The position numbers and the translations under genes were made by a program. The notes under the pieces are model-generated. The model did not search any database. It worked only from the letters and a program-made list of their open reading frames with translations, and was not told the origin of the DNA. A stretch of 64,000 nt of DNA from Verrucomicrobiaceae bacterium. GTDB taxonomy: Bacteria; Verrucomicrobiota; Verrucomicrobiia; Verrucomicrobiales; Verrucomicrobiaceae. The first letter of the stretch is position 1. Each line of letters opens with the position of its first letter. Positions 33,921 to 60,169 of the stretch are shown piece by piece. The stretch lies in assembly GCA_027490195.1 (NCBI GenBank), contig JAIXYN010000031.1, positions 1 through 64,000 of the forward strand, given 5' to 3'.

Positions 33921-33992
33921 GCAAAGGCCCCCTTTCGCCGTTCCCCTTGACTTCCTCCCCTCGCCCACTACCCTCCCACCGCTTTCGAGCAT

Positions 33993-34067
33993 GGCGAGGT
34001 AGCAAAGTGGTAATGCACTGGTCTGCAAAACCGGTATGCGCGGGTTCAATTCCCGCCCTCGCCTCCA
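33993..34067 (+). tRNA. tRNA-Cys (GCA)
   Basis: A full cloverleaf is readable. The acceptor stem GGCGAGG pairs with CCTCGCC (34057-34063), the discriminator is T and CCA is encoded. The anticodon arm CTGGT/ACCGG has loop CTGCAAA and anticodon GCA. The T arm GCGGG/CCCGC has loop TTCAATT. It borders the accessory region that begins just downstream, a common place for integration. Confidence 0.95.
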
Positions 34068-34128: not shown

Positions 34129-34698
34129 GTGAGCAATGCCTACACAGTGCTTTGGAACAGTGACCGGGTCAGGATCGCCAAAAAGCACGACCTCATCGGC
34201 AGGCCCATCGACTTCCTCTTTGGCGGCCCACACACCACCCAGCCCAGTTTCATCAAAGCGGGCGTGAAGGCGGGAGAAATCGTGTATCCCGTTTCCGTTC
34301 GAGACGGCGCTCTTCACATTCTCTCGCAGGTACGCGTCAGGGCGATTGTGACAGTGGATGACTTCATCGCTGAGCATCCCGATCTCTATCCTCCCGAGAC
34401 TCATGCGCCACGCGCTTTCGAAACCCTCGACAAGGGGGTCGAGTTACACCCATGGCTTCGCGCCTTAAACTGGACCGGGTCAGATCATGTCCTGCTGGCA
34501 GAGAGATCCACCCCGTTCAGTCTCGAAACCGTCCTACCTCCCGAAATGCTGACGCGTTTGACCTTCCGTTTCAACAAGGCCGACTGGCCCGTCAGTGGCG
34601 TCGCTGAAAGCCGCCTCACCACCACCGTCGGCCTTCAGGGCATCCATCGCTTGTCATTCTCTTCTGCATGGGACTTTGCCAGCCTGTTTCCAACATGA
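34129..34698 (+). CDS. Protein of unknown function between the two tRNA-Cys copies
   Basis: The GTG at 34129 opens a 189-residue frame with balanced composition and mixed alpha/beta character (AYTVLWNSDRVRIAKKHDLIGRPIDFLFGG; GEIVYPVSVRDGALHILSQVRVRAIVTVDDFI). The start is uncertain. The GEIVYPVSVRDGALHILSQVRV part is vaguely like small beta-barrel folds such as PUA/ASCH, but no firm match can be claimed. It lies in the segment bounded by the real and the decayed tRNA-Cys. Confidence 0.6.
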   Translation: MSNAYTVLWNSDRVRIAKKHDLIGRPIDFLFGGPHTTQPSFIKAGVKAGEIVYPVSVRDGALHILSQVRVRAIVTVDDFIAEHPDLYPPETHAPRAFETLDKGVELHPWLRALNWTGSDHVLLAERSTPFSLETVLPPEMLTRLTFRFNKADWPVSGVAESRLTTTVGLQGIHRLSFSSAWDFASLFPT

Positions 34699-35018
34699 CC
34701 TCATCCCAGGAAAGTGGGTTAAGGGCGCAAAGAATGGATATGTTAACCTCCCTCCCATTTCCCCTGCCCTGCCATCACTTTCGTGCATGCCGAGGTAGCA
34801 GAGTGGGAATGCTGGTCTGCAATACCAGTTTGCTCGGATTCAAATTCCGCCGTCACCTCATTAGTAATTCGAACTCAGATCAATGCCTTTTTGAAGGCTG
34901 AAATATCTACTTCTCCAGACCTTGAAGCGCTTGATAGTGTTGCGATCAGGATCAAGTTCCGGTGCGTTCCAGCCGTACCCCAGACTACAGTTCCTGGAAT
35001 GAACGAGGGAGAACTGGC
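34699..35018. other. Intergenic, includes decayed tRNA-Cys; otherwise no gene seen
   Basis: About 320 bases. The first part, roughly 34750-34788, resembles the sequence upstream of tRNA-Cys at 33993. Then come the tRNA-like remnant and an AT-richer stretch leading to the 3' end of the NAD+ synthetase gene. Open frames here are short and look random. Confidence 0.5.
34789..34861 (+). pseudogene. Decayed second copy of tRNA-Cys
   Basis: The segment aligns with tRNA-Cys over its whole length, and the resemblance continues about 30 bases upstream (CTTTCGTGCATGCCGAGGTAG versus CTTTCGAGCATGGCGAGGTAG). The anticodon arm CTGGT/ACCAG with GCA is intact, but the acceptor stem pairs at only about four of seven positions and CCA is lost. 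It is probably not functional. Confidence 0.75.
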
Positions 35019-35759
35019 TTACACTGGAGAGAAAATTGGGGGAAATGTTCTTTTGTGAGCAGTCAGGCGGTTGAGCCTGTGTGTACGGTCTAAGTCTACA
35101 GTGTCAACATTCGTCTCATCCACCACAGCCCATTCCCTGTTAAGTATCGAGTCCAGGGTATCTTCTGAAATGCCCCACTCCGATTCCGCACTCTGGAAAT
35201 GCACACACCCAGAAGCTTTTCGATTGATCAATGCGTTCGAAAAGCCGTAGCCTGCTCCCAATTCTCTAATCTCACTTTTGGAGAGCTTGGCGAGAGGCAG
35301 CACATCGCCGAGTGCTGCATGCTTCTGAAAGTAACCGATTCCGAACTCCGTCCGATTCATTGTTCCGATAACCAATAACTTGCGGGAATTTGCAAATGTA
35401 TAAAGTGCCATGGAACGAAGGCGGGTCCGAACGTTGGAGCGAATCACGGGGTCGTCTACATGTAGTAGTTGTATCCCGGTCTGGTAGAGCGCAGATAAAT
35501 CAAACTCCATGCTATTGATTTTGTGCTCTGCGCAAAAACCGGACATGTCCCCCCCATCGGTCCGGCCATCATAATCGATGGGTAGACTGAGCGCGGTAAA
35601 CGTTTTTCCGACCATGGTGGCTGCAATACTTCCAGCTTTGGCACATACGGCAGAATCAATACCCCCGGAAACACCTACAACATAACCGTTCATCCCGCTG
35701 TTGGCCAGATAATCGGCGAGCCACAATTCTATCTTGCCGCGAATCATTTCTATTTTCAT
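35019..35759 (-). CDS. nadE: NAD+ synthetase (ammonia-dependent type) in a TIR operon
   Basis: The 246-residue protein matches NadE: the PP-loop SGGIDS (31-36) in VVGVSGGIDSAV, NVRTRLRSMALYTFAN, GTMNRTEFGIGYF, and GDVLPLAKLSKSEIREL, with a C-terminal acidic helix. NadE adenylates nicotinate adenine dinucleotide and converts it to NAD+ with ammonia. There is no glutaminase domain. It is the third gene of a minus-strand operon, 4 bases after the 324-aa gene, whose first gene encodes a TIR protein. Whether it replenishes NAD+, makes a signal or has another substrate is not known. The housekeeping NadE may be elsewhere. Confidence 0.85.
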   Translation of the reverse strand: MKIEMIRGKIELWLADYLANSGMNGYVVGVSGGIDSAVCAKAGSIAATMVGKTFTALSLPIDYDGRTDGGDMSGFCAEHKINSMEFDLSALYQTGIQLLHVDDPVIRSNVRTRLRSMALYTFANSRKLLVIGTMNRTEFGIGYFQKHAALGDVLPLAKLSKSEIRELGAGYGFSNALINRKASGCVHFQSAESEWGISEDTLDSILNREWAVVDETNVDTVDLDRTHRLNRLTAHKRTFPPIFSPV

Positions 35760-35763
35760 ATTA

Positions 35764-36738
35764 TTATACTCTATTTTGGATGTCTTGAACTATCTTATAA
35801 AAAGCGTTCCAATCGGACTCTGTGCGATCAAGCGATAGTCTTTGCGCCACCCTGCACATTAGGTCACCCCATCGGTCAGGGTTTGCCCTCATGGAATCGA
35901 AAACCGGTGGCCAAATCACTTGCGATAGCAATCCCATCTCGATCGCCGCGAATGGCCAAGGGCATGGCCGGCCATCAGGAGTGTTTGTCAAAAGATCAGC
36001 ATCCTCCAAACCCAAATTTTCCAAGGAAACATGGCAGTCGCGTTTTCTTCGTCGCGGAAAGATATGTGCACACACGATGTGGGGGGATTCGTGTTGTGGA
36101 GAAAGCACAAGGTTACATGAGTCTCTGCAGTAGCTTTTGACCACCATCCACACACACCGGCCAACACCTTGCGCATCTCCTGTTATCTTAACACCGTTTA
36201 TCGGATAATGGTCTGGACCAAAGATTTCAATTTGGACGGTGCCTTCAGGATGATTATTCTGCATCCCTGCGCAAGGAATGGAGTAAAAACTTTCCCCGTT
36301 AGCGTGTGACATCAATGGTAGTGATTGGAAATGGCAGCTAGTCAGGGATCTGGCTCCGCCATTACAAGGGTTATGCCAAACGACTCGGCCAGTTTCTAGG
36401 GAAAAAAGACAGGCATTTACGATGTGACTTTCTTTCAAGCCTGGGGAAACACGATTGCCAAATTCATCGAACGGGACCAGCACGAACCGATCACGTATGA
36501 GAGGATCCTGGTCTCGAGTGCACACGAAAAATCCGTCGGAATTTTGCTCCCATTTTGCAAATATCTCTGGAGCTTTTGATTTTGGAATACCGCTGATTTC
36601 TGGGTGACGACGGTATGAAGATTCAACAATGTTGAAATGAAAAGCATAGCCGGGAATGGGCAAATGAAGCCAAGTTTGTAGCCAATCGTTGGGATACGTG
36701 GTGTCCAACAGCCTGCGGAGTGTATCATTGAATGCCAT
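35764..36738 (-). CDS. Unrecognised 324-aa protein of the TIR/NadE operon
   Basis: No family was recognised. The protein is globular, without signal peptide or membrane helices, and has many Cys and His residues (about 12 Cys), for example CGxARSLTSCHFQ-like and GRCVWMVVKSYCRDSC segments. The central part (SCHFQSLPLMSHANGESFYSIPC ... TVQIEIFG) is loosely reminiscent of a sensory beta-sheet domain such as GAF, a weak impression only. It starts 2 bases after the stop of the TIR-NACHT gene and ends 4 bases before nadE, so it surely belongs to the same transcript. Confidence 0.7.
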   Translation of the reverse strand: MAFNDTLRRLLDTTYPNDWLQTWLHLPIPGYAFHFNIVESSYRRHPEISGIPKSKAPEIFAKWEQNSDGFFVCTRDQDPLIRDRFVLVPFDEFGNRVSPGLKESHIVNACLFSLETGRVVWHNPCNGGARSLTSCHFQSLPLMSHANGESFYSIPCAGMQNNHPEGTVQIEIFGPDHYPINGVKITGDAQGVGRCVWMVVKSYCRDSCNLVLSPQHESPHIVCAHIFPRRRKRDCHVSLENLGLEDADLLTNTPDGRPCPWPFAAIEMGLLSQVIWPPVFDSMRANPDRWGDLMCRVAQRLSLDRTESDWNAFYKIVQDIQNRV

Positions 36739-36740
36739 GC

Positions 36741-39509
36741 TTATTGAATTGTTCTAGCGAGACGAAAACCCACCAACTTGTGTCGTTCCTCAGGATTGTT
36801 TACACCTCGGTACGTTGATCGGACGCTTCCGGGAGGACGCTCGTACCAAGATGCGCCCCGAAGAATCTTCAAATTCTGGTCGCCATCACCGCCGATTCCA
36901 TAGGCTACAAACCAGTTGCTGCACCACTCCCACACATTTCCCAATAAGTCGCAGACTCCTTGCGGAGAGTTTCCCAGGGGGAACAGCCCAACTGCCGTTG
37001 CGTGTCCAATAAATCCTCCATGATTGCAGTGGTTGCTTGTTGTTGTTGGTTCAGAATCCCCCCAAGGATATGAACGATCTTTTCCCCGGGCCAGAAACTC
37101 CCACTCTTCTTCGGTTGGAAGTCGAGCACCGACGAATTTGCAGTAAGCAGCCGCCTCGAACCAACTAACTCCTACCACAGGCCGGTTCGGGAATCGGACT
37201 TGCTCATTCCATCGTTTGGGTCTCGAATTGGTTCTGAACTGCCCATCGCTCCAAAACTCCTTGGACTCATATCCACCGGATTTAATAAATGTCCCGTATT
37301 CCTCCACTGTGACCAGATATTTACTAACCTCAAAAGAACCAACTATAACCTCGTGCACTGGTTGTTCATTGGAAAGCGCTCTAGAATGGTAGCTTGGCCT
37401 CTTGGAGCAGGATGCTTGTGCCCCCATCAAAAAACTTCCCCCATCAATGTTTATCCATGTGGTGTTATCGATGCGCTTATCGCCACACTGACCGATTACG
37501 TTACTGACGACGACACGGTCCTCAATGGTGATTTCTTGAAAGCTTTTTTCAGAATAAACCGAATCGGATACGGAATTCACCAAAGCCTGGATCGCATCGG
37601 TCTGTAAAAACGACTGCGGGCGTGCGACTTGTGAGACGAGGTCGCCGATCGTTTTTAAGGCTTTGACACGCTCGTGAAGTTGTTGCGATTGACAGGGCGA
37701 AAGTCTATTTAACAATCCTTGGAGTCGCCTTGGAGCATCTTGTTCGAGTAGCGCTCCAAGAAAACCTGCAATCGACGCCTGCAGGGTGTCAGCAAAACCG
37801 ACACTGGTGAACATGGTGACAATTTCGTCGTCGGTTAATGTGGTAAGCCCTGATGCTGCGAAGAACTCTCGCAAGAGCGGCATTTTGAAGCGAACGGCAT
37901 CGGCCTTCAATTCAATCAGTTCACTGCCCCTCGCTTCTTCTCGCAAATAACACTCCATGTCGAAGTCTTCAAGGCCTGGATAGGAAGAGCAGGCCTCCGA
38001 ACAATCGGATAATCGAATGGTATCGACACCTTCTTTGCCAAACTGTATCGCCAACGCAATTGCACGGAGAATGTTGAAGCGCTTGGATGAAGTCAAACCA
38101 CTTTTCAATTTGCGCGAGTCCAAGAGCCATTGGCAGATGGAGGATAACACCTCCGAATAAAAAGTTAGATTGGCCTGTCCTGTTAAATAGAGAACAGAGA
38201 AGAATGCCAACGTCATTGGCAAGGTCAACAAGGTCCTGATCGGGGAGTCTCGGTTCAACTCCTGCTCTACAAATTTTAAAAGAGAATTGGTCCCGCGTTT
38301 TTCAAGACTCTGAATAAATTCAATGACATCACATTTTTGTAACTCCGAGATTTGCCAAAGGGAAAAACCTGAGAAATCGTTTTGACCTATTTGCAGTCTT
38401 GCGGTGACAAGAACGCAAAGTTTAGGGAAATGTTCATCAAACAAATTTAAAAGCGGCAGCACCTCGTTGGTTTGGTCTTGAAGAGGCAACTCGTCTAATC
38501 CATCTAGGATCAATATGGCGTTCCCGTTCTCCAAAAGCGTTTGAATGTGCTTGCTTGATAAGCCCCAAGACTGACGCTCGCTCAAGGAACTAAGAAATTG
38601 AACAAGGTGATCTGGGTTGGCGATATCTCGCAAAGGCACAATGGGTGCGTTGCTACTCACATCGATTGGAGAAAGTAGAAGTGGAATACGCTTGTCTTCT
38701 GGATTTACGATCTTGTTGGAACCGGCGCTCTCAGGATTGAGGCTGTTCTTGCAAAGTTCGTATGCTACCAAGCGAGTGAAAGTAGTTTTTCCGCTGCCAG
38801 GCCTTCCTTCAATGAGCGATCTGCGCTCCGAAAGAACCGTCTTAAGCGGGAGTTTTCGCGCTTCCGAAGTATGTCCATTGCCTCCGACCGTAGTTACTCC
38901 AGAAAGAGGAATAAACGGTTTGACGTCACTTTTACCTAATGTGCGGAAGAACTGGGCGCTCCACGTGTCAGATTCTTCGAGCTTTGCGAAAAGCCATTTT
39001 CTATATACTGTGAACGAATTTGCCGAGCCGATGAAAGCGCTATCTTCGCCGCGCGATGTATAGTGATCCTTCGCCTTATCCTCATTGATAGCGAGCCGCT
39101 CTAAAATCAATTGAGCGCACTCTTCTGCGGATTTATTATCCAGCTCGGCATATCCTGCACCGTAGAATCCATTTGGCTCCACCTTCTCAAAGCGGCAGAG
39201 CATCACTTTTTTCGATTCTTCCTTTTTGCTGAACTCAAGGATAGCAGACCATTCCAAGCCAGCCCATTCGCTGTGAAGATAGGCCGGAGAAAGGATCGCA
39301 ACCGTGAGGTCAGACTGTTCGTAATACAGCTTCGGAAGATAACTTTTGAGCATGGCCCGAGCGAACTCCGCCTCATGATACTTGTCGTAAAGGATGGCTT
39401 TCTGTCCACCAACGGCTTTCGCGAGTTCTGCAGCCACATCATGGACAAACTCGCGCTTCTCTCCAGAGAATGAGAGCGAGATGCGAAAACGACAGGTAGT
39501 GGGGCTCAT
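36741..39509 (-). CDS. TIR-NACHT-FGE-fold protein, putative immune NLR-like sensor
   Basis: The 922-residue protein has three domains. Residues ~7-130 are a TIR domain (RISLSFSGEKREFVHDVAAEL; VAILSPAYLHSEWAGLEW), with E86 the probable NADase glutamate. Residues ~205-560 are a NACHT-type STAND NTPase with Walker A GRPGSGKTT (235-243) and Walker B ILILDGLDEL. Residues ~683-922 have the FGE/SUMF1 fold (IDGGSFLMGA, PVVGVSWFEAAAYCKFVGARLPTEEEWEFLAR, GNVWEWCSNW, VGFRLAR). Both catalytic cysteines of true FGE are absent (YRG, GFRLA), so this part is probably a binding domain. Bacterial TIR-STAND proteins sense phage and destroy NAD+. It is the first gene of the operon. Confidence 0.88.
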   Translation of the reverse strand: MSPTTCRFRISLSFSGEKREFVHDVAAELAKAVGGQKAILYDKYHEAEFARAMLKSYLPKLYYEQSDLTVAILSPAYLHSEWAGLEWSAILEFSKKEESKKVMLCRFEKVEPNGFYGAGYAELDNKSAEECAQLILERLAINEDKAKDHYTSRGEDSAFIGSANSFTVYRKWLFAKLEESDTWSAQFFRTLGKSDVKPFIPLSGVTTVGGNGHTSEARKLPLKTVLSERRSLIEGRPGSGKTTFTRLVAYELCKNSLNPESAGSNKIVNPEDKRIPLLLSPIDVSSNAPIVPLRDIANPDHLVQFLSSLSERQSWGLSSKHIQTLLENGNAILILDGLDELPLQDQTNEVLPLLNLFDEHFPKLCVLVTARLQIGQNDFSGFSLWQISELQKCDVIEFIQSLEKRGTNSLLKFVEQELNRDSPIRTLLTLPMTLAFFSVLYLTGQANLTFYSEVLSSICQWLLDSRKLKSGLTSSKRFNILRAIALAIQFGKEGVDTIRLSDCSEACSSYPGLEDFDMECYLREEARGSELIELKADAVRFKMPLLREFFAASGLTTLTDDEIVTMFTSVGFADTLQASIAGFLGALLEQDAPRRLQGLLNRLSPCQSQQLHERVKALKTIGDLVSQVARPQSFLQTDAIQALVNSVSDSVYSEKSFQEITIEDRVVVSNVIGQCGDKRIDNTTWINIDGGSFLMGAQASCSKRPSYHSRALSNEQPVHEVIVGSFEVSKYLVTVEEYGTFIKSGGYESKEFWSDGQFRTNSRPKRWNEQVRFPNRPVVGVSWFEAAAYCKFVGARLPTEEEWEFLARGKDRSYPWGDSEPTTTSNHCNHGGFIGHATAVGLFPLGNSPQGVCDLLGNVWEWCSNWFVAYGIGGDGDQNLKILRGASWYERPPGSVRSTYRGVNNPEERHKLVGFRLARTIQ

Positions 39510-54005: not shown

Positions 54006-54862
54006 AGACCACCATCCTCTTTGGGCTCGTAGCACTCAGTTTGTGCGCTGAAGAACTGCCTGATATCCGCAGCGTTCCGGCTGATCTCGAAGTACCTGCC
54101 TTGAGCGCTGGCCCACCGGCTGCCGGCAAGCGCGTCAAAGTGGGACTGCATGTGCTCTACTTACCGACCGATTGGAAACCGGGCGCAAAGATGCCGGTGA
54201 TCGTCGAGCTCGCTGGCAATGGCCGCTACACCAACAAGTTCGGCGATGTCAGCACCGGGCTGCCTGAAGGCAGCAATCTCGGCTACGGCCTCTCTGCCGG
54301 TCGCGGTTTCATCTGGCTGTGCTCGCCGTATTTGAACGAGAAGGGCGATGAAATCGCGATCACCTGGTGGGGCAATCCACCGACCTATGATCCGCAGCCG
54401 ACACTGAAATACCTGCGCGAAACCGTAAAGTCCGTGTGCCGCGACTACGGCGGAGATGCATCAAAGGTCGTGCTCTGCGGCTTCTCACGCGGAGCCATCG
54501 CCTGCAACTACCTCGGCCTCCACGACGACGAAACCGCCAGCCTGTGGTGCGGGTTTCTTTTCTACAGCCATTACGACGGCGTCAAAACTTGGCCCTATCC
54601 CCATTCAGATCGTGAATCCGCCCTGGTCCGCCTGAAACGTCTTGGCAATCGCCCCCAGTTCATCTGCGGCGAAGCCTCGAATGCGCAGGAAACCGAAGCC
54701 TATCTACGCCCGCTGCTCCCGCAGGCAGATCTGACCTTCCTGAGCACCGGCTTCCGCAATCACAACGATGCCTGGACTCTGCGGCCCAGCCCTGCGCGTG
54801 CGAAGGCCAAGGAGTGGCTGCAGCGTGTCATTTCTGACCGCCGAGCAGATCCCAAGCCTTGA
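54002..54862 (+). CDS. Exported alpha/beta hydrolase
   Basis: The 286-residue protein has a short signal peptide and the alpha/beta-hydrolase core: KMPVIVELAGNGRYTN, VVLCGFSRGAIACNYLGL with the nucleophile elbow GFSRG, and a C-terminal NHNDAWTL where the catalytic His is expected. It is the last gene of the DUF1552 operon. Its 3' end overlaps that of the retron reverse transcriptase, encoded on the other strand, by 35 bases. Confidence 0.75.
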   Translation: MKTTILFGLVALSLCAEELPDIRSVPADLEVPALSAGPPAAGKRVKVGLHVLYLPTDWKPGAKMPVIVELAGNGRYTNKFGDVSTGLPEGSNLGYGLSAGRGFIWLCSPYLNEKGDEIAITWWGNPPTYDPQPTLKYLRETVKSVCRDYGGDASKVVLCGFSRGAIACNYLGLHDDETASLWCGFLFYSHYDGVKTWPYPHSDRESALVRLKRLGNRPQFICGEASNAQETEAYLRPLLPQADLTFLSTGFRNHNDAWTLRPSPARAKAKEWLQRVISDRRADPKP

Positions 54863-56417
54863 AGAGTTTCATGCCTTGCTGCGGGTTGATCATCTTCACG
54901 TAGCCAAGCATGCCGCTGACCCAGCCGGCAAAGTTGTCATGGCCAATGCGGTTCTGCGCAGGCAGACCGGTTTTATCCGCCTGATGCAGGATCGCACGCA
55001 GCCGGCGGCGGGTTTTGCGGTCCACATTGCAGCGGTCATTCACCACGATGCCGGTGACGCTTTGCTGAGCGTTGCGGCGCTGGATGCGGGTCTTGGCGGT
55101 GTTGACCTCGAAGTGCTCATCCTTCACGATGTGGTGCAGGCGGCTGAGGATCAATGCGGTGGCCTTGGCGGGTTCACCACGGCTCGAGAAGGTCAGGTCA
55201 TCTGCATAGCGCGTGTAAGTCCAGCCGTGCTTGGCGGCGAGGGCGGCAAAGCGCAGGTCGAGCTTCCGGGCGCAGAGATTGCTCAGCGCAGGGCTGGTGC
55301 AGGCACCCTGCGGCAGCGCACGCAAACCGTTGGCGACGTGATAGGTCTGCCCGTCATACGTCACAGTGCGGCGCGGGCACTCCGTGCAAAGCAGGGCCAG
55401 GACCGTGGCCACCGCAGGTGAGTAGCCAAGCTGCTGAAAGATGCCGCGCACGCGTGGGAAGGTGATGCTGGGGAAAAAGTCCTTCAAATCAGCGTTCAAG
55501 ACCACATCCTTGCCGGTGTGTGACCGTGCGTTTGTCAGCGTGCTGCGCTCACGCACAAAGCCGTGAGCCACACCGCTCACAGGCACGTGTTCGAGGATGT
55601 TTTGCAAAATCCAGCTCTGGGCACGGGCGAGATCGGCATGCGGTGTGGAGATTTCACGCATGCCCCCGCTCTTTTTCGGAATTTGAAAGCGGATGTAGTG
55701 CGTGACCACGGCCACTTCGGCATGAAAGGCCAGCCAGCGTAGGCGTTTCACCGGCAGTTCCAATGCGGTGGCGAGTTCCGCCGGAGTGGAGAGGATCGGC
55801 AGCTTTGCCTCCTGCAATTTTTCGATGTGAGATCGCCGGTCCGCGAGGCCACCGGAGACACCCCGGCCCAGGAAGATGATGTCCGTGGCTTTGCGCTGGA
55901 CGATGGCCTCCTCGCGCGCTGCTTTGCGCTGGGCGGCCTCTGCTTTCTTCTGGCGTTTAAGCTCGGCTTTCGCGGCTTTGTCCGCACTGACGGCAGCCAT
56001 GCCCTGATGATGCACGCCTTCATAGCTGGGGCGGAGCTCTTCCATCTTCAGGCCGATCTCGTGGATCTCCGCCAACGCCTCCGGCGTGATGAATCCTTCG
56101 CCCACCATCGCGCGGTCGATCATGAGCGTACGCTCGTCCGTGACTGGTGGGATGACGCTCTGGCGGCCAAAGGCGAAGAGATTGCTCCACAGTGGGCGGC
56201 CCATGGCCTTGGCCTGCTTCTTGGTCTCAGCGCCGGAGATACCGGTGAAGATGTCGGAGTCGAGCTGCGTCAGTGTCCTAGGTTTGACCGGTTTTGGAGC
56301 CGTGCGGGCCTGTGGCACGGTGTTGTGCCGTGGACTGGTGGAAGGCCGGGGAAGCGGCGGAGGCGTACTCGGAGTGGAGCCGCCGAGAAGCCGTCGGATG
56401 AAGCTTAGTAGTCCCAT
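54828..56417 (-). CDS. Retron-type reverse transcriptase
   Basis: The ATG at 56417 gives 529 residues. An N-terminal region of about 200 residues is Pro-rich then coiled-coil (AAKAELKRQKKAEAAQRKAAREEA). The RT follows: LNADLKDFFPSI (catalytic Asp), LPQGACTSPALSNL, YADDLTFSS (YADD, 404-407). The two retron hallmarks are present: NARSH (NAxxH, 296-300) in region X and VTG (454-456) in region Y. It would copy the adjacent ncRNA (56457-56678) into msDNA. Upstream on the same strand are SWIM and HEAT-repeat genes, fitting a type XIII retron as I recall that class. Confidence 0.92.
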   Translation of the reverse strand: MGLLSFIRRLLGGSTPSTPPPLPRPSTSPRHNTVPQARTAPKPVKPRTLTQLDSDIFTGISGAETKKQAKAMGRPLWSNLFAFGRQSVIPPVTDERTLMIDRAMVGEGFITPEALAEIHEIGLKMEELRPSYEGVHHQGMAAVSADKAAKAELKRQKKAEAAQRKAAREEAIVQRKATDIIFLGRGVSGGLADRRSHIEKLQEAKLPILSTPAELATALELPVKRLRWLAFHAEVAVVTHYIRFQIPKKSGGMREISTPHADLARAQSWILQNILEHVPVSGVAHGFVRERSTLTNARSHTGKDVVLNADLKDFFPSITFPRVRGIFQQLGYSPAVATVLALLCTECPRRTVTYDGQTYHVANGLRALPQGACTSPALSNLCARKLDLRFAALAAKHGWTYTRYADDLTFSSRGEPAKATALILSRLHHIVKDEHFEVNTAKTRIQRRNAQQSVTGIVVNDRCNVDRKTRRRLRAILHQADKTGLPAQNRIGHDNFAGWVSGMLGYVKMINPQQGMKLFKAWDLLGGQK

Positions 56418-56456
56418 GGGTGTGTTCAGACCGAAGGAGATGTTTCGTGATTTTCC

Positions 56457-56678
56457 GGGAGGGGCGCATGCGTCACTGACTACTTGCTCAGGACCAAGTC
56501 CGTTCACTCAGGCCACTGTCGCCTCCCGACGCGTGCGAACGTTCGGGTTGCCTTGGCCAAGCGTCGGGAGGCGACAGTGGCCATCCGAACAACGGGCTTG
56601 GGGATGCATGGACGGGCAGCTTCATTCGCGGCGGAACACCGCAAGGATGGTCTCAGTGAGCATGCGTCCCCTCTCGGG
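56457..56678 (-). ncRNA. Retron ncRNA (msr-msd) with a1/a2 pairing
   Basis: The gap of 303 bases between the SWIM and RT genes contains the expected retron fold. The ends pair: 56459-56480 (GAGGGG.CGCATGC.TCACTGA pattern) is nearly the reverse complement of 56653-56676, giving a1/a2. Nearer the RT lies a perfect 22-bp stem, 56511-56532 with 56561-56582, around a 28-base loop containing CGAACGTTCG; this is the expected msd hairpin. Between a1 and it, GCGG/CCGC at 56631-56642 gives an msr stem-loop. The order a1-msr-msd-a2-RT on the minus strand is that of known retrons. The exact ends and branching G are not determined. Confidence 0.82.
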
Positions 56679-56720
56679 AAATGTGGAAAGATCGTGTTTC
56701 GGTGGTGGCGGCCTCCGGGG

Positions 56721-58421
56721 TCAGGGGTTGGTGCGAAACCCGGACCAGAGCCTCTCATACAGAGACGGCGTGCCTGGGTCAACGGGGTTCAAAAGTTTGC
56801 GGCGGAAGGCGATGAGGTGCCGGCAGGGGCCTTTCCTCAGTCCGCCTTTGAAATGATGAGAGCAGTCGCACTTGGCGCGGCGCATCATGCCGTCGCGGTC
56901 CAGCAGCAGCTCCACTTCGCGTTTTTGCACCGTGCCTGTGTGCAGCTTGGTGTCATTGGGAGCATCGGTGCTGCTGTGCACGAGCACATCGCGGTCGGGG
57001 ATATCGCGTGCGGCCACGGCCTCCGCATTGGGTGGGCCCATCTGCTCTTCTCCCATCACCTGTGGCATGATCTGACGCCAGCGGTAAACCTGATGCGGCA
57101 GATCAAAGATGACCTGGCCGGAATGCGCCAGATGCTTCAGCGCCGCAGTTGTGATGGGGGCCGAGGCCGCACTGGCGCTGACGAGCATGGCAAGATCTGC
57201 CGAATGCTTCTGGCGGAGTGTGGCGGCGACTTTTTCGATCACATCCGGGCCCGGCTCCTGCGGTGGCAGCAGAAGGTCCAATGCGCTGCCGTGGGTCCAG
57301 TCATTCGTAGTCCAGCCGGAGAGACCCAGCGTGAGCTTCATCGGGCCCATGTGCGCGATCCACATGGAGGGCAGGCCGGTGCCGAGCAGGCAGACCTCCA
57401 CGCGATCTATCAGCGGCAGCAGACGTGCCAGGGCCAGCAGGCGGCGCACGCCCCAGACGCGGATGGGCTCCATGGACTGCGCACACGGCGGCGCAGCGCG
57501 GTCAACGATGCGCTGCTCCCAGGGCTCCAGCACCAGCTCGGGTGCACGGCCTTCCACCAGTTCAAACCGTAGCGCGCGCGGGCTGCGCGGGGCCTTGTGC
57601 CGGCGCAGCCAGGCGAGGAGGGAGTACAGTCCCTGCCGCGAGAGTATCACCCGCCGCATGGGCAGAGTCATGGCGCCCTGAAGCTGCATGAAGCCGCGCA
57701 GCCAGCCGGTGGGGAGGTCGATCTTTTCTTCGCGATAATCCTCGCCGCCCTGCACTTTGACTTCAAAGCCTGAGGGATCGACGTGAAAGCGCGCGGGCTG
57801 GTAGGTACGAAGAGTCTGGAAGTGGTGAAAGAGATCCCAGGAGTAATCCACATTCGTCGTGCCGCACTGCACGCCTGCTGCGGGGGTGAAGCACTCGTCA
57901 CGCTCGACGCTCAGGCAGCCATAGCTTGACTCATCTGCGCTGAAGCACTCAAAGAACACCACGTCTGGCGCCACGGTGATGACGGGATCGCAAGGCATGA
58001 GCAGACGCCACAGCTCCTGATCATGGCGGCGTAGGTGGTCGGAGTACTTCAGCCGGGCACTCCAGTAGCTTTTGCGCGCGCGGTCGAACTTTTTTTCAAA
58101 ATCGTGCGGCAGCGGCTGCTTGTGCTTTGCCTGCATTTCCTGAGTGGCCTCGCGCACTGCTTCGGCGCGGATGGCGCTCTGGCGCTGCTGCTCGGCCTTC
58201 CGCCATTCTTCGTAGGCGGTTTTGTCGCGGGGTTTGAAGCGCAGGTCATTGATCACCACATCATGCAGCGCGGAGATGGCTTCCCGGAAGTGAAGGGGAT
58301 TTTTCAGTGCGGCATCAAAGGCCACCGCGTCCCGCTTCAAGTTGGGCGAGAGGGACACAATCTGCCCGCCACCCGAATCGGCGACATGACTGCGACCGCG
58401 ATAGGCAAAAGTGATGTTCAT
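56721..58421 (-). CDS. SWIM zinc-finger protein of the retron
   Basis: The 566-residue protein ends with a SWIM motif CDCSHHFKGGLRKGPCRHL (CxCx12CxH, from residue ~518). The region before it (about 440-510) may contain a winged helix (ALKHLAHSGQVIFDLPHQVYRWRQIMP). The N-terminal part is charged and helical (AYEEWRKAEQQRQSAIRAEAVREATQEM). SWIM domains bind DNA or proteins. Its 3' end precedes the ncRNA by about 40 bases and its start overlaps the HEAT-repeat gene by 4 bases. It matches the WHSWIM component of type XIII retrons as I recall them. Confidence 0.8.
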   Translation of the reverse strand: MNITFAYRGRSHVADSGGGQIVSLSPNLKRDAVAFDAALKNPLHFREAISALHDVVINDLRFKPRDKTAYEEWRKAEQQRQSAIRAEAVREATQEMQAKHKQPLPHDFEKKFDRARKSYWSARLKYSDHLRRHDQELWRLLMPCDPVITVAPDVVFFECFSADESSYGCLSVERDECFTPAAGVQCGTTNVDYSWDLFHHFQTLRTYQPARFHVDPSGFEVKVQGGEDYREEKIDLPTGWLRGFMQLQGAMTLPMRRVILSRQGLYSLLAWLRRHKAPRSPRALRFELVEGRAPELVLEPWEQRIVDRAAPPCAQSMEPIRVWGVRRLLALARLLPLIDRVEVCLLGTGLPSMWIAHMGPMKLTLGLSGWTTNDWTHGSALDLLLPPQEPGPDVIEKVAATLRQKHSADLAMLVSASAASAPITTAALKHLAHSGQVIFDLPHQVYRWRQIMPQVMGEEQMGPPNAEAVAARDIPDRDVLVHSSTDAPNDTKLHTGTVQKREVELLLDRDGMMRRAKCDCSHHFKGGLRKGPCRHLIAFRRKLLNPVDPGTPSLYERLWSGFRTNP

Positions 58422-60169
58422 GCGGCGGCCTTGATTGAGTTTTCCACCGCAGGATGCAGCACCAGCTCTGGCAGCGCCTGCGCCACAGCTGGTTCCAATT
58501 CTGGACGAGAGGCGATCAGCGTCATCACTGCGGCCAACGCCGCACGTGCCTCGGGACCGCGAATGGACCGCACGGCGGCCACGAGCACCGGCAGCAGCTT
58601 TTCATCCGGCGTTTTCGTGAGCGCATTCACGATCTGCCGCAGCGCCTTCAATTTCTGCCTGCCGCCGCGATGCACGTCCAGCAGCACACTGGTCCACACC
58701 GGAGCCAGATCATCCGCACCCACCGGCGGGTTTTCGGCACGCACTGCGAGTGCGTCGATCATGCGGCTGCGCAGATCCACATACGGCGTCTCGGCCAGAC
58801 GGCTCCACAGTGCGGCATCATGCCAGCCTGGGGAGTTCTCCAGCTCCATCCATGCCCATGCGCCCTCGCGGATGCCGGCATTGGCACTGTCAAAGAATCG
58901 GCATACCACCGGCATCTGATACACCTCCGCCGTGCCAAGCTGCGCCAGCGCCCAACGGACGATTTCTCCGCCAAGGCCAAGACACTGCGCCCGCCACAGA
59001 CCCGCGATCACACCCCGCTCAGCCGCATCACGTGGCGCTGCCTTTTCTAGGAGTCGCAGCCCCAGTCGCGCAATCGGCGTGGCCTTTGCCAGCGCGATCT
59101 CCACGCGCTGCGCCAGCGAAACGCGCTCATCGCGCACATGCTTCAGCATCGCATCACACAAGAGCTGGGCCACACGCGGATTCTCGCACTTCAGCAGTTT
59201 CAGCCAGGTCTCCAGCGGCCAGTTCGCCGCTTCCGTGCACTCGGACAGCAGTCTCGCCCCATAGCTTTGCACTTCCTCATCGGCATGCGCGAGCATGCGT
59301 GTCAGAACGTCCGCCGAAGGTGCATTCGTGACCGTTTTGGCCAGCTCCTGATGCCAGGCCAGCGCCCAGACCCGCACCACACGCGACTGCGCCGTCACGA
59401 TCAGCTCCAGCGCTGCCACCGCACCGTCCGGCGTGCGCCAGTGCTGTGAAAACGCCGGGCCTGGCCGCAGATCCGCCAGCGTTCGGCCCTCCTTAAGTAT
59501 CGCCCGCAGAGGGCTGAATTCCACGGCATCGCTCTCGCCATGCAGCGCGTGCATGAGGCTCCAGCTGTCGAGCAAATTCTCTCCGGCGGCGAGATCCTCA
59601 TCCTGAAACGCCGCCAACCCCGGCACCACAGCCGCCAGGTAGCGCGGCCCGTCCTTGAAGCCCAGCTTGCGGAAGTACCGCCACACGCGCCGCTGCAGGT
59701 AGTAGCGCGTGCGGTATTTGAAGATGCGGAATTTTTCCAGCTTCTTCGGTGTGAGGTATTTCGACATCGTGGCCGAGAAAACATTGCGCGGTGTTTGGAG
59801 CACCTCGGACTGGAACATGGTCCGGGAAGCCCGGTCCCATTGAAATTCTTTGCCGCGCCTGCGCCGCACGAGCCGGTCAAATGCCACAAAGCACCGTGCC
59901 ATCACGGCATCATCACCACGTGCCTCGGCAGATTTGAAGAGCCGCTTCACCACTACCTGATGGCCCGGCTTGTCGAAGGGCAGTTCAAAATAGCTCTGCA
60001 TCATTGTCCGGGCCCACGGACGCGGATCATTCTTCCATTTCTCCGCCAGCCCCGCGAGCGCCTTGGGTTCCTTCAGGGTGCGAATCGTCTCAAGGAAGGC
60101 ATCAGCGCCAGCACTGAGTTGCTCCTCAGCCAGCAGATGCATTCCCCGTTGATCGCTCGAATTTCCCAC
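58418..60169 (-). CDS. HEAT/ARM-repeat protein of the retron
   Basis: The 583-residue protein is almost wholly helical, with repeated helix pairs rich in Leu/Ala (for example LTRMLAHADEEVQSYGARLLSEC; VAQLLCDAMLKHVRDERVSLAQRVEIALAKATPIARLGLRLL; LRQIVNALTKTPDEKLLPVLVAAVRSIRGPEARAALAAVM), typical of HEAT/ARM solenoids. An Arg/Lys-rich region (FRIFKYRTRYYLQRRVWRYFRKLG, about 155-180) could touch nucleic acid. It heads the operon. The start is GTG at 60169; the ATG at 60142 is an alternative. Confidence 0.8.
   Translation of the reverse strand: MGNSSDQRGMHLLAEEQLSAGADAFLETIRTLKEPKALAGLAEKWKNDPRPWARTMMQSYFELPFDKPGHQVVVKRLFKSAEARGDDAVMARCFVAFDRLVRRRRGKEFQWDRASRTMFQSEVLQTPRNVFSATMSKYLTPKKLEKFRIFKYRTRYYLQRRVWRYFRKLGFKDGPRYLAAVVPGLAAFQDEDLAAGENLLDSWSLMHALHGESDAVEFSPLRAILKEGRTLADLRPGPAFSQHWRTPDGAVAALELIVTAQSRVVRVWALAWHQELAKTVTNAPSADVLTRMLAHADEEVQSYGARLLSECTEAANWPLETWLKLLKCENPRVAQLLCDAMLKHVRDERVSLAQRVEIALAKATPIARLGLRLLEKAAPRDAAERGVIAGLWRAQCLGLGGEIVRWALAQLGTAEVYQMPVVCRFFDSANAGIREGAWAWMELENSPGWHDAALWSRLAETPYVDLRSRMIDALAVRAENPPVGADDLAPVWTSVLLDVHRGGRQKLKALRQIVNALTKTPDEKLLPVLVAAVRSIRGPEARAALAAVMTLIASRPELEPAVAQALPELVLHPAVENSIKAAA

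Follow-up and report, generated by a model that had tools for sequence, protein, structure and literature searches.

In a 64,000-nucleotide stretch of a Verrucomicrobiaceae bacterium genome (assembly GCA_027490195.1, contig JAIXYN010000031.1, positions 1 to 64,000; hereafter the window), we found a row of three minus-strand genes in which a TIR-NACHT-FGE receptor gene stands beside an orphan gene and a gene for a NadE-fold protein that lacks residues of the NAD+ synthetase ammonia site and P2 loop. The locus is real and its receptor is of a known type; what is new is the orphan and the altered NadE next to a TIR-STAND gene, a combination that is so far unique. Judged from its sequence, the NadE-fold protein most likely either binds nucleotides in partnership with the receptor or works as an altered adenylating enzyme; the residues it has lost make a plain recovery enzyme less likely. 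The genes and the domains of the receptor are as follows.

36741-39509, minus strand: gene 1, TIR-NACHT-FGE protein of 922 amino acids (open reading frame; Pfam)
39111-39479, minus strand: TIR domain of gene 1, amino acids 11-133 (Pfam)
38364-38831, minus strand: NACHT NTPase switch of gene 1, about amino acids 227-382 (Pfam NACHT; AAA_22 below cut-off)
36753-37466, minus strand: FGE/C-type-lectin-fold domain of gene 1, amino acids 682-919, probable sensor (Pfam FGE-sulfatase)
35764-36738, minus strand: gene 2, orphan protein of 324 amino acids with 12 Cys and 13 His (open reading frame; coding-like composition)
35019-35759, minus strand: gene 3, NadE-fold protein of 246 amino acids with altered ammonia-site and P2-loop residues (Pfam NAD_synthase; model)

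The genes run head to tail with 2 bases between genes 1 and 2 and 4 bases between genes 2 and 3, as an earlier note on this DNA had reported. That note also joined them in a single transcript; the close spacing speaks for this, and co-transcription itself we infer from that spacing. Promoter- and terminator-like sites occur at the operon no more frequently than in shuffled sequence.

Gene 3 matches Pfam NAD_synthase with an E value of 1e-35. Its model has a mean predicted local distance difference test (pLDDT) score of 83.9, lower (61) at about amino acids 181-190 in the P2 region, and aligns with H. pylori NadE (1xng) at Z 28.8 and a root-mean-square deviation of 2.2 over 243 residues; across NadE chains, Z ranged from 19.9 to 28.8 at 18-30% identity. 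By structure comparison, the fold is shared with GMP synthetase and LarE. To place individual residues, we aligned gene 3 to 117 NadE homologues, of which 109 were distinct (37 cellular and 72 viral) and to which it is 24-39% identical. It has the N-type ATP pyrophosphatase fold and SGGxDS P-loop of the family, with both SGGIDS and GTMNRTEFGIGYF motifs present, and it keeps S31, G32, G33, D35, S36, N109, R113, R115, T133, E138 and G142, each found in 109/109 homologues, together with Tyr143 and His235-Lys236. The earlier note had described a NadE "with all visible core motifs"; the two motifs it named are there, but T145 (kept by 109/109 homologues), G148 (108/109), D149 (109/109), D191 (107/109) and Y199 (109/109) are lost, as is L186 (108/109). 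Asp149 and Asp191 are each replaced by Ala and Tyr199 by Glu. The lost Thr and Gly-Asp directly follow the GTMNRTEFGIGYF motif, and the lost Asp and Tyr lie in the P2-loop region, so that gene 3 has neither the invariant ammonia-site Asp nor the Asp and Tyr that close the P2 loop. An assembly frameshift as the source of these losses was considered, by eye only, and set aside.

D149 corresponds in position to Asp497 of the M. tuberculosis enzyme. The link between the two is the separate full-length NadE of the same genome, with a GD motif that lines up with the 6ofc chain (residue 497 was counted on the alignment as seven after Trp490). Asp497 is described as the last ammonia-transfer site in M. 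tuberculosis NAD+ synthetase, its human counterpart Asp530 as strictly conserved, and the human Asp587-Tyr595 hydrogen bond as a contact that, with two others, closes the P2 loop (PMC6946656). By position and spacing, D191 and Y199, eight residues apart, would match human Asp587/Tyr595, and L186 would match Leu575 of the P2 loop. Five solved NadEs (3fiu, 2e18, 3p52, 1xng and 4f4h) keep T, GD, L, D and Y at these places. At the sequence level, the pattern in gene 3 is retention of the nucleotide and adenylation end with loss of the ammonia and loop-closing end. The same genome holds a separate full-length NadE (G000:C92), which leaves gene 3 free to change; with that enzyme present and its own ammonia-site and P2 residues lost, gene 3 is probably no plain NAD+ maker. 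The working NAD+ synthetase proposed in the earlier note therefore lacks support, residues invariant or nearly so in 109 homologues being lost, and the possibility it had raised, that gene 3 is the only NAD+ synthetase of the genome, does not hold.

Gene 3 has no close relative, and none that stands out as belonging to its subfamily, in 288 genomes of its own phylum, its own included (best 30%, 53 bits), or in 392 genomes of Planctomycetota, the phylum of TIR locus L179 (Pirellula), where the best match reached 33% and 95 bits. In L208 and L209, the top two matches from Planctomycetota, every residue missing from gene 3 is present, L208 being a canonical NadE at 31-33%. A viral scan with gene 3 alone gave no match, plasmid searches peaked at about 32% identity in records either annotated as NAD+ synthases or unannotated, and nothing above 40 bits was found in 18 of the 39 genomes with related TIR genes (see below). 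NadE relatives as such are frequent in viral contigs (467/600 among the pattern matches listed from IMG/VR, plus 30 phage records by tblastn), and the ammonia-site Asp is kept in 80/80 viral NadE loci read (IMG/VR L082-L161).

Gene 1 carries the TIR, NACHT and FGE-fold domains that the earlier note had assigned, all three above the Pfam cut-off (TIR_2, E 9e-11; NACHT, 2e-9; FGE-sulfatase, 1e-52). The TIR domain is fused to a NACHT NTPase with Walker A (GRPGSGKTT) and Walker B (DGLDEL) in the translation, and the FGE domain forms the C-terminal end behind the NTPase, as in TIR-STAND receptors and in FGE/CLec-STAND sensors, respectively. Gene 1 is an already known kind of protein, a putative immune receptor. 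Glu86, in a SEWAGLEW stretch, is invariant across five aligned TIR-STAND proteins, and we take it to be the NADase glutamate of the TIR domain. The TIR is 52-57% identical to those of four STAND-TPR proteins, of which one is encoded elsewhere in this genome and the other three by different genomes of the genus. PADLOC returned weak matches only for gene 1 (E 4e-4 and 0.01). A search of 55 further genomes, the majority from its genus and order, yielded relatives of the TIR domain, a single NACHT stretch at 30% and nothing else; no plasmid record covered 80% of the gene, and viral scans with its TIR-NACHT part and with query A2 found no relative.

Using TIR-derived patterns against the genomes of 84,980 species, we identified 39 loci with the same TIR subfamily, spanning Planctomycetota, Acidobacteriota, Cyanobacteria, Pseudomonadota, Verrucomicrobiota and others, in which this TIR is joined to differing modules. 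Four of the 39 hold FGE proteins (L175, L176, L179 and L188), and three of these (L176, L179 and L188) also have, by motif, a YMDD-type reverse transcriptase, presumably of the diversity-generating retroelement type. An AAA protein (Pfam AAA_5) directly follows the TIR gene in L175, L185 and L188, with a similar frame in L176 by eye; for that of L185 only, the MoxR family bpMoxR scored above its cut-off. L179 has a TIR-NACHT-FGE protein as well, whose TIR appears different by eye.

For gene 1 itself, a role as a diversity-generating retroelement target was rejected, as the genome showed neither a template repeat nor a reverse transcriptase of that type. The 400 bases at the 3' end of gene 1, which encode the FGE end, matched only themselves at an E cut-off of 0.001 (genome 95% complete), and PF00078 detected two reverse transcriptases in the genome, one belonging to type XIII retron families and the other, at G000:C89:16050-16694, of group II intron type by eye.

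The co-occurrence of the three genes in other genomes, which the earlier note had proposed as a test, was not seen within the short flanks and partial sampling available. Profile searches of the 39 TIR loci (3.8-21.4 kb each, 0.55 Mb in total) found NadE in 0/39, and the NadE profile recovered the genome's own NadE (L052) as a control; a relative of gene 2 was likewise found in 0/39. A second set of 11 TIR or NACHT loci, drawn from seven relatives and this genome, had neither NadE nor gene 2 (0/11); three of these share their contigs with L165, L180 and L183 of the first set. The three-gene set is so far known from one genome only; a functional link between the genes has no comparative support, yet it is unrefuted, as relatives of the whole locus may be unsampled. 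A literature search, which left out most subscription journals and bioRxiv, turned up no described system with this gene set among its best matches, consistent with the earlier note, which knew of none.

Gene 2 looks like a coding gene, with G+C by codon position of 0.54/0.43/0.46, as in its neighbors, and 8-20 stops in each of the other five frames. It had no Pfam match up to E 10, no PADLOC or NCBIfam match and a best E value of 0.4 against PHROGs. The best PDB match (E 0.011) comprised three very weak stretches in one chain and was taken as chance. Exact 8-residue patterns, a weak test, found nothing in viral and genome contigs; tblastn of plasmids and phages gave no believable relative; and no relative was found in the 39 TIR loci and 80 viral NadE loci. 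Whole-genome searches covered the 288 genomes of its own phylum, 398 of Pseudomonadota (the phylum of L176, Methylomonas) and 386 of Cyanobacteria (the phylum of L166, Nodosilinea) and returned no believable relative besides gene 2 itself; without a control, an empty answer from such a search carries no weight. Two weak matches (20 and 21 bits, each with an internal stop) lie antisense to frames of more than 1000 amino acids (L008) and 691 amino acids (L221) and were put down to coincidence. Modelled from its sequence alone, gene 2 gave an uninformative structure (mean pLDDT 36).

We then considered the genomic setting of the operon. G+C is 47-49% across the 35-40 kb stretch, whereas most of the window has about 60%. 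At third codon positions, the three genes have a G+C of 0.46-0.52 and their nearest neighbors one of 0.63-0.84. The end of the operon lies about 950 bases from a tRNA-Cys gene, and between the two is a decayed second copy.

33993-34067, plus strand: tRNA-Cys (gca) (ARAGORN)
34743-34859, plus strand: decayed second tRNA-Cys gene copy with leader (direct repeats; not called as a tRNA by ARAGORN)

The ARAGORN call and the G+C figures bear out the earlier description of an island near tRNA-Cys that is richer in A+T than its surroundings. The repeats match the intact copy at 33947-34065 over 70 nucleotides (76%) and 48 nucleotides (81%), at spacings of 796 and 794, and the decayed copy may mark an earlier event, an insertion or a duplication, in the interval from the tRNA to the operon. 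To the right of the operon is a FecR/porin-like/cyclase block with 77-82% protein identity in three relatives, kept in part in three further ones. In the FecR-side stretches of these relatives, some of which end soon after FecR, neither operon nor tRNA was seen and an empty site was not found. The insert was therefore probably gained horizontally, at a site linked to a tRNA, which supports the proposal of a TIR-STAND receptor in a probably acquired insert. Between the intact and decayed tRNA-Cys copies, we also noted a 189-amino-acid frame of no known family (34129-34698). Going by its gene content, the region holds a second defense system: a complete-looking type XIII retron at 54828-60169 on the minus strand of the window, 15-20 kb from the operon, with PADLOC matches to RT_XIII (E 6e-163), SWIM_XIII (4e-181) and HEAT-ARM_XIII (1e-221).

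Our preferred reading, which we hold tentatively and with somewhat less than even confidence, is that the locus is an operon of antiviral type, gained by horizontal transfer, with gene 3 as a NadE-fold, nucleotide-binding partner of the TIR-STAND receptor and gene 2 as an adaptor or target. Starting from the observed architecture, predicted fold and residue losses, we infer the function and each step of the mechanism. As in other members of its family, the FGE domain of gene 1 would sense the invader, the NACHT domain would then assemble, and the TIR domain would then cleave NAD+. Gene 3 should have retained the ability to bind ATP as well as a dinucleotide resembling NAD, which it might adenylate, and lacking the ammonia-site Asp and the loop-closing residues it would carry out no ordinary NAD+ synthesis; it would most likely serve as a gauge of NAD or a precursor, or as a brake, for the receptor, with gene 2 acting as adaptor or target. 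The sharper claim, that a NadE fold without its ammonia site has become an immune subunit that either gauges NAD or a precursor for the TIR-STAND receptor or poisons NAD+ re-synthesis by phage or host, the reverse of a recovery enzyme, we regard as somewhat unlikely.

Several points weigh against a partnership of gene 3 with the receptor. With no second instance of the full set found, neither joint action nor conservation of the losses has support, and the loss of invariant residues can also mean decay. Alignment of the ammonia site and P2 region of gene 3 requires one-residue gaps, and the D191 to Ala change also occurs in 1/109 homologues. The role of the ammonia-site Asp varies, as in the human enzyme Cys531, beside Asp530, is described as holding the last ammonia position (PMC6946656). 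Agreement in fold is partly built in, as canonical NadEs were in the alignment used for the model, and 72 of the 109 reference sequences are viral and mutually related, although the 37 cellular ones agree with them. The function proposed for gene 3 draws on sequence and a predicted fold.

The lost residues also bear on the brake or recovery enzyme of the earlier note, a reading in which gene 3 is divergent but active as an NAD+ synthetase and either replenishes NAD+ or holds the TIR domain in check. SARM1 is a TIR NADase. A precedent for such restraint exists in NMNAT1, an NAD+ biosynthetic enzyme described as blocking SARM1-mediated NAD+ depletion (PMC5063586), and gene 3 has the full-length NadE fold with the P-loop, ATP residues, Tyr143 and His235-Lys236 in place; but the loss of Asp149, Thr145 and Tyr199 (all 109/109) and Asp191 (107/109), along with the full-length NadE already in the genome, makes this unlikely. 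Retention of the nucleotide-binding residues with loss of the ammonia end could instead fit a dominant-negative NadE, in which an ammonia-dead subunit poisons the NadE of phage or host and halts NAD+ repair while the TIR acts. The NadE substrate site is reported to be built at the dimer interface (PMC6946656) and viral contigs commonly encode NadE relatives, as counted above, yet hetero-dimers are doubtful at 24-39% identity, and we consider this explanation very doubtful.

The same split between a kept adenylation half and a lost ammonia site, in a fold shared with GMP synthetase and LarE, would also suit an adenylating enzyme with a new acceptor, either a metabolite or gene 2, that yields a signal or a modified protein. 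Gene 2 has no recognizable domain, though, and with no product, acceptor or receptor known, we judge this quite unlikely. In another view, the TIR-NACHT-FGE gene stands alone at an insertion hotspot by tRNA-Cys, and genes 2 and 3 happen to follow it as passengers or are in decay. The decayed tRNA copy points to turnover at this position, either partner occurs in the flanks of 0/39 TIR relatives, 16/38 TIR genes have no directly adjacent same-strand frame of at least 70 amino acids (a count that wrongly includes L176, where the next frame overlaps beyond the limit, and some contig ends), and the annotated neighbors of a NACHT-FGE relative on a Thiodictyon plasmid include neither partner. Against this, the three genes share one strand, 2- and 4-base spacing, a similar base composition and open frames, and we give the passenger explanation little credence.

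If gene 3 takes part, a NAD-biosynthesis fold would have been recruited into bacterial TIR immunity, in parallel to the control of animal SARM1 by NAD metabolism, raising the question of whether a cell that destroys its NAD+ has a component devoted to reading or blocking the re-synthesis of NAD+. Should the genes be neighbors and no more, the locus is one more TIR-STAND receptor.

Among known systems, STAND proteins that end in a C-type lectin domain, or in one locus in FGE, and that in some cases carry a TIR, have been described as targets of diversity-generating retroelements and putative antigen sensors (PMC10907252). Gene 1 shares with them the central STAND NTPase, the C-terminal lectin-fold end and, as in some of them, an N-terminal TIR; it differs in that no template repeat was found for its FGE end and in the added orphan and NadE-like genes. 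An FGE-type domain has also been noted in cyanobacterial ternary conflict systems (PMC7159879). With the bNACHT and Avs antiphage receptors, gene 1 has in common the effector-NTPase-sensor layout, whereas the FGE sensor, the two accessory genes and the weak PADLOC matches set it apart. The Swarozyc systems (DUF4062, TIR-like NADases) likewise have NADase effectors, some in operons beside diverse enzymes, but they use DUF4062 rather than TIR_2, and the words "NadE" and "synthetase" are absent from the main text of their description (PMC13174449). Compared with ammonia-dependent NadE, gene 3 has the same full-length fold, P-loop and ATP residues and has lost Thr145, Gly148, Asp149, Leu186, Asp191 and Tyr199. 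Its best sequence match among solved structures is the Francisella NMN synthetase 3fiu, a member of the NadE family that keeps the GDG and SAGLW...TDE motifs, both lost in gene 3; the title of that structure suggests that the NadE family can change its substrate.

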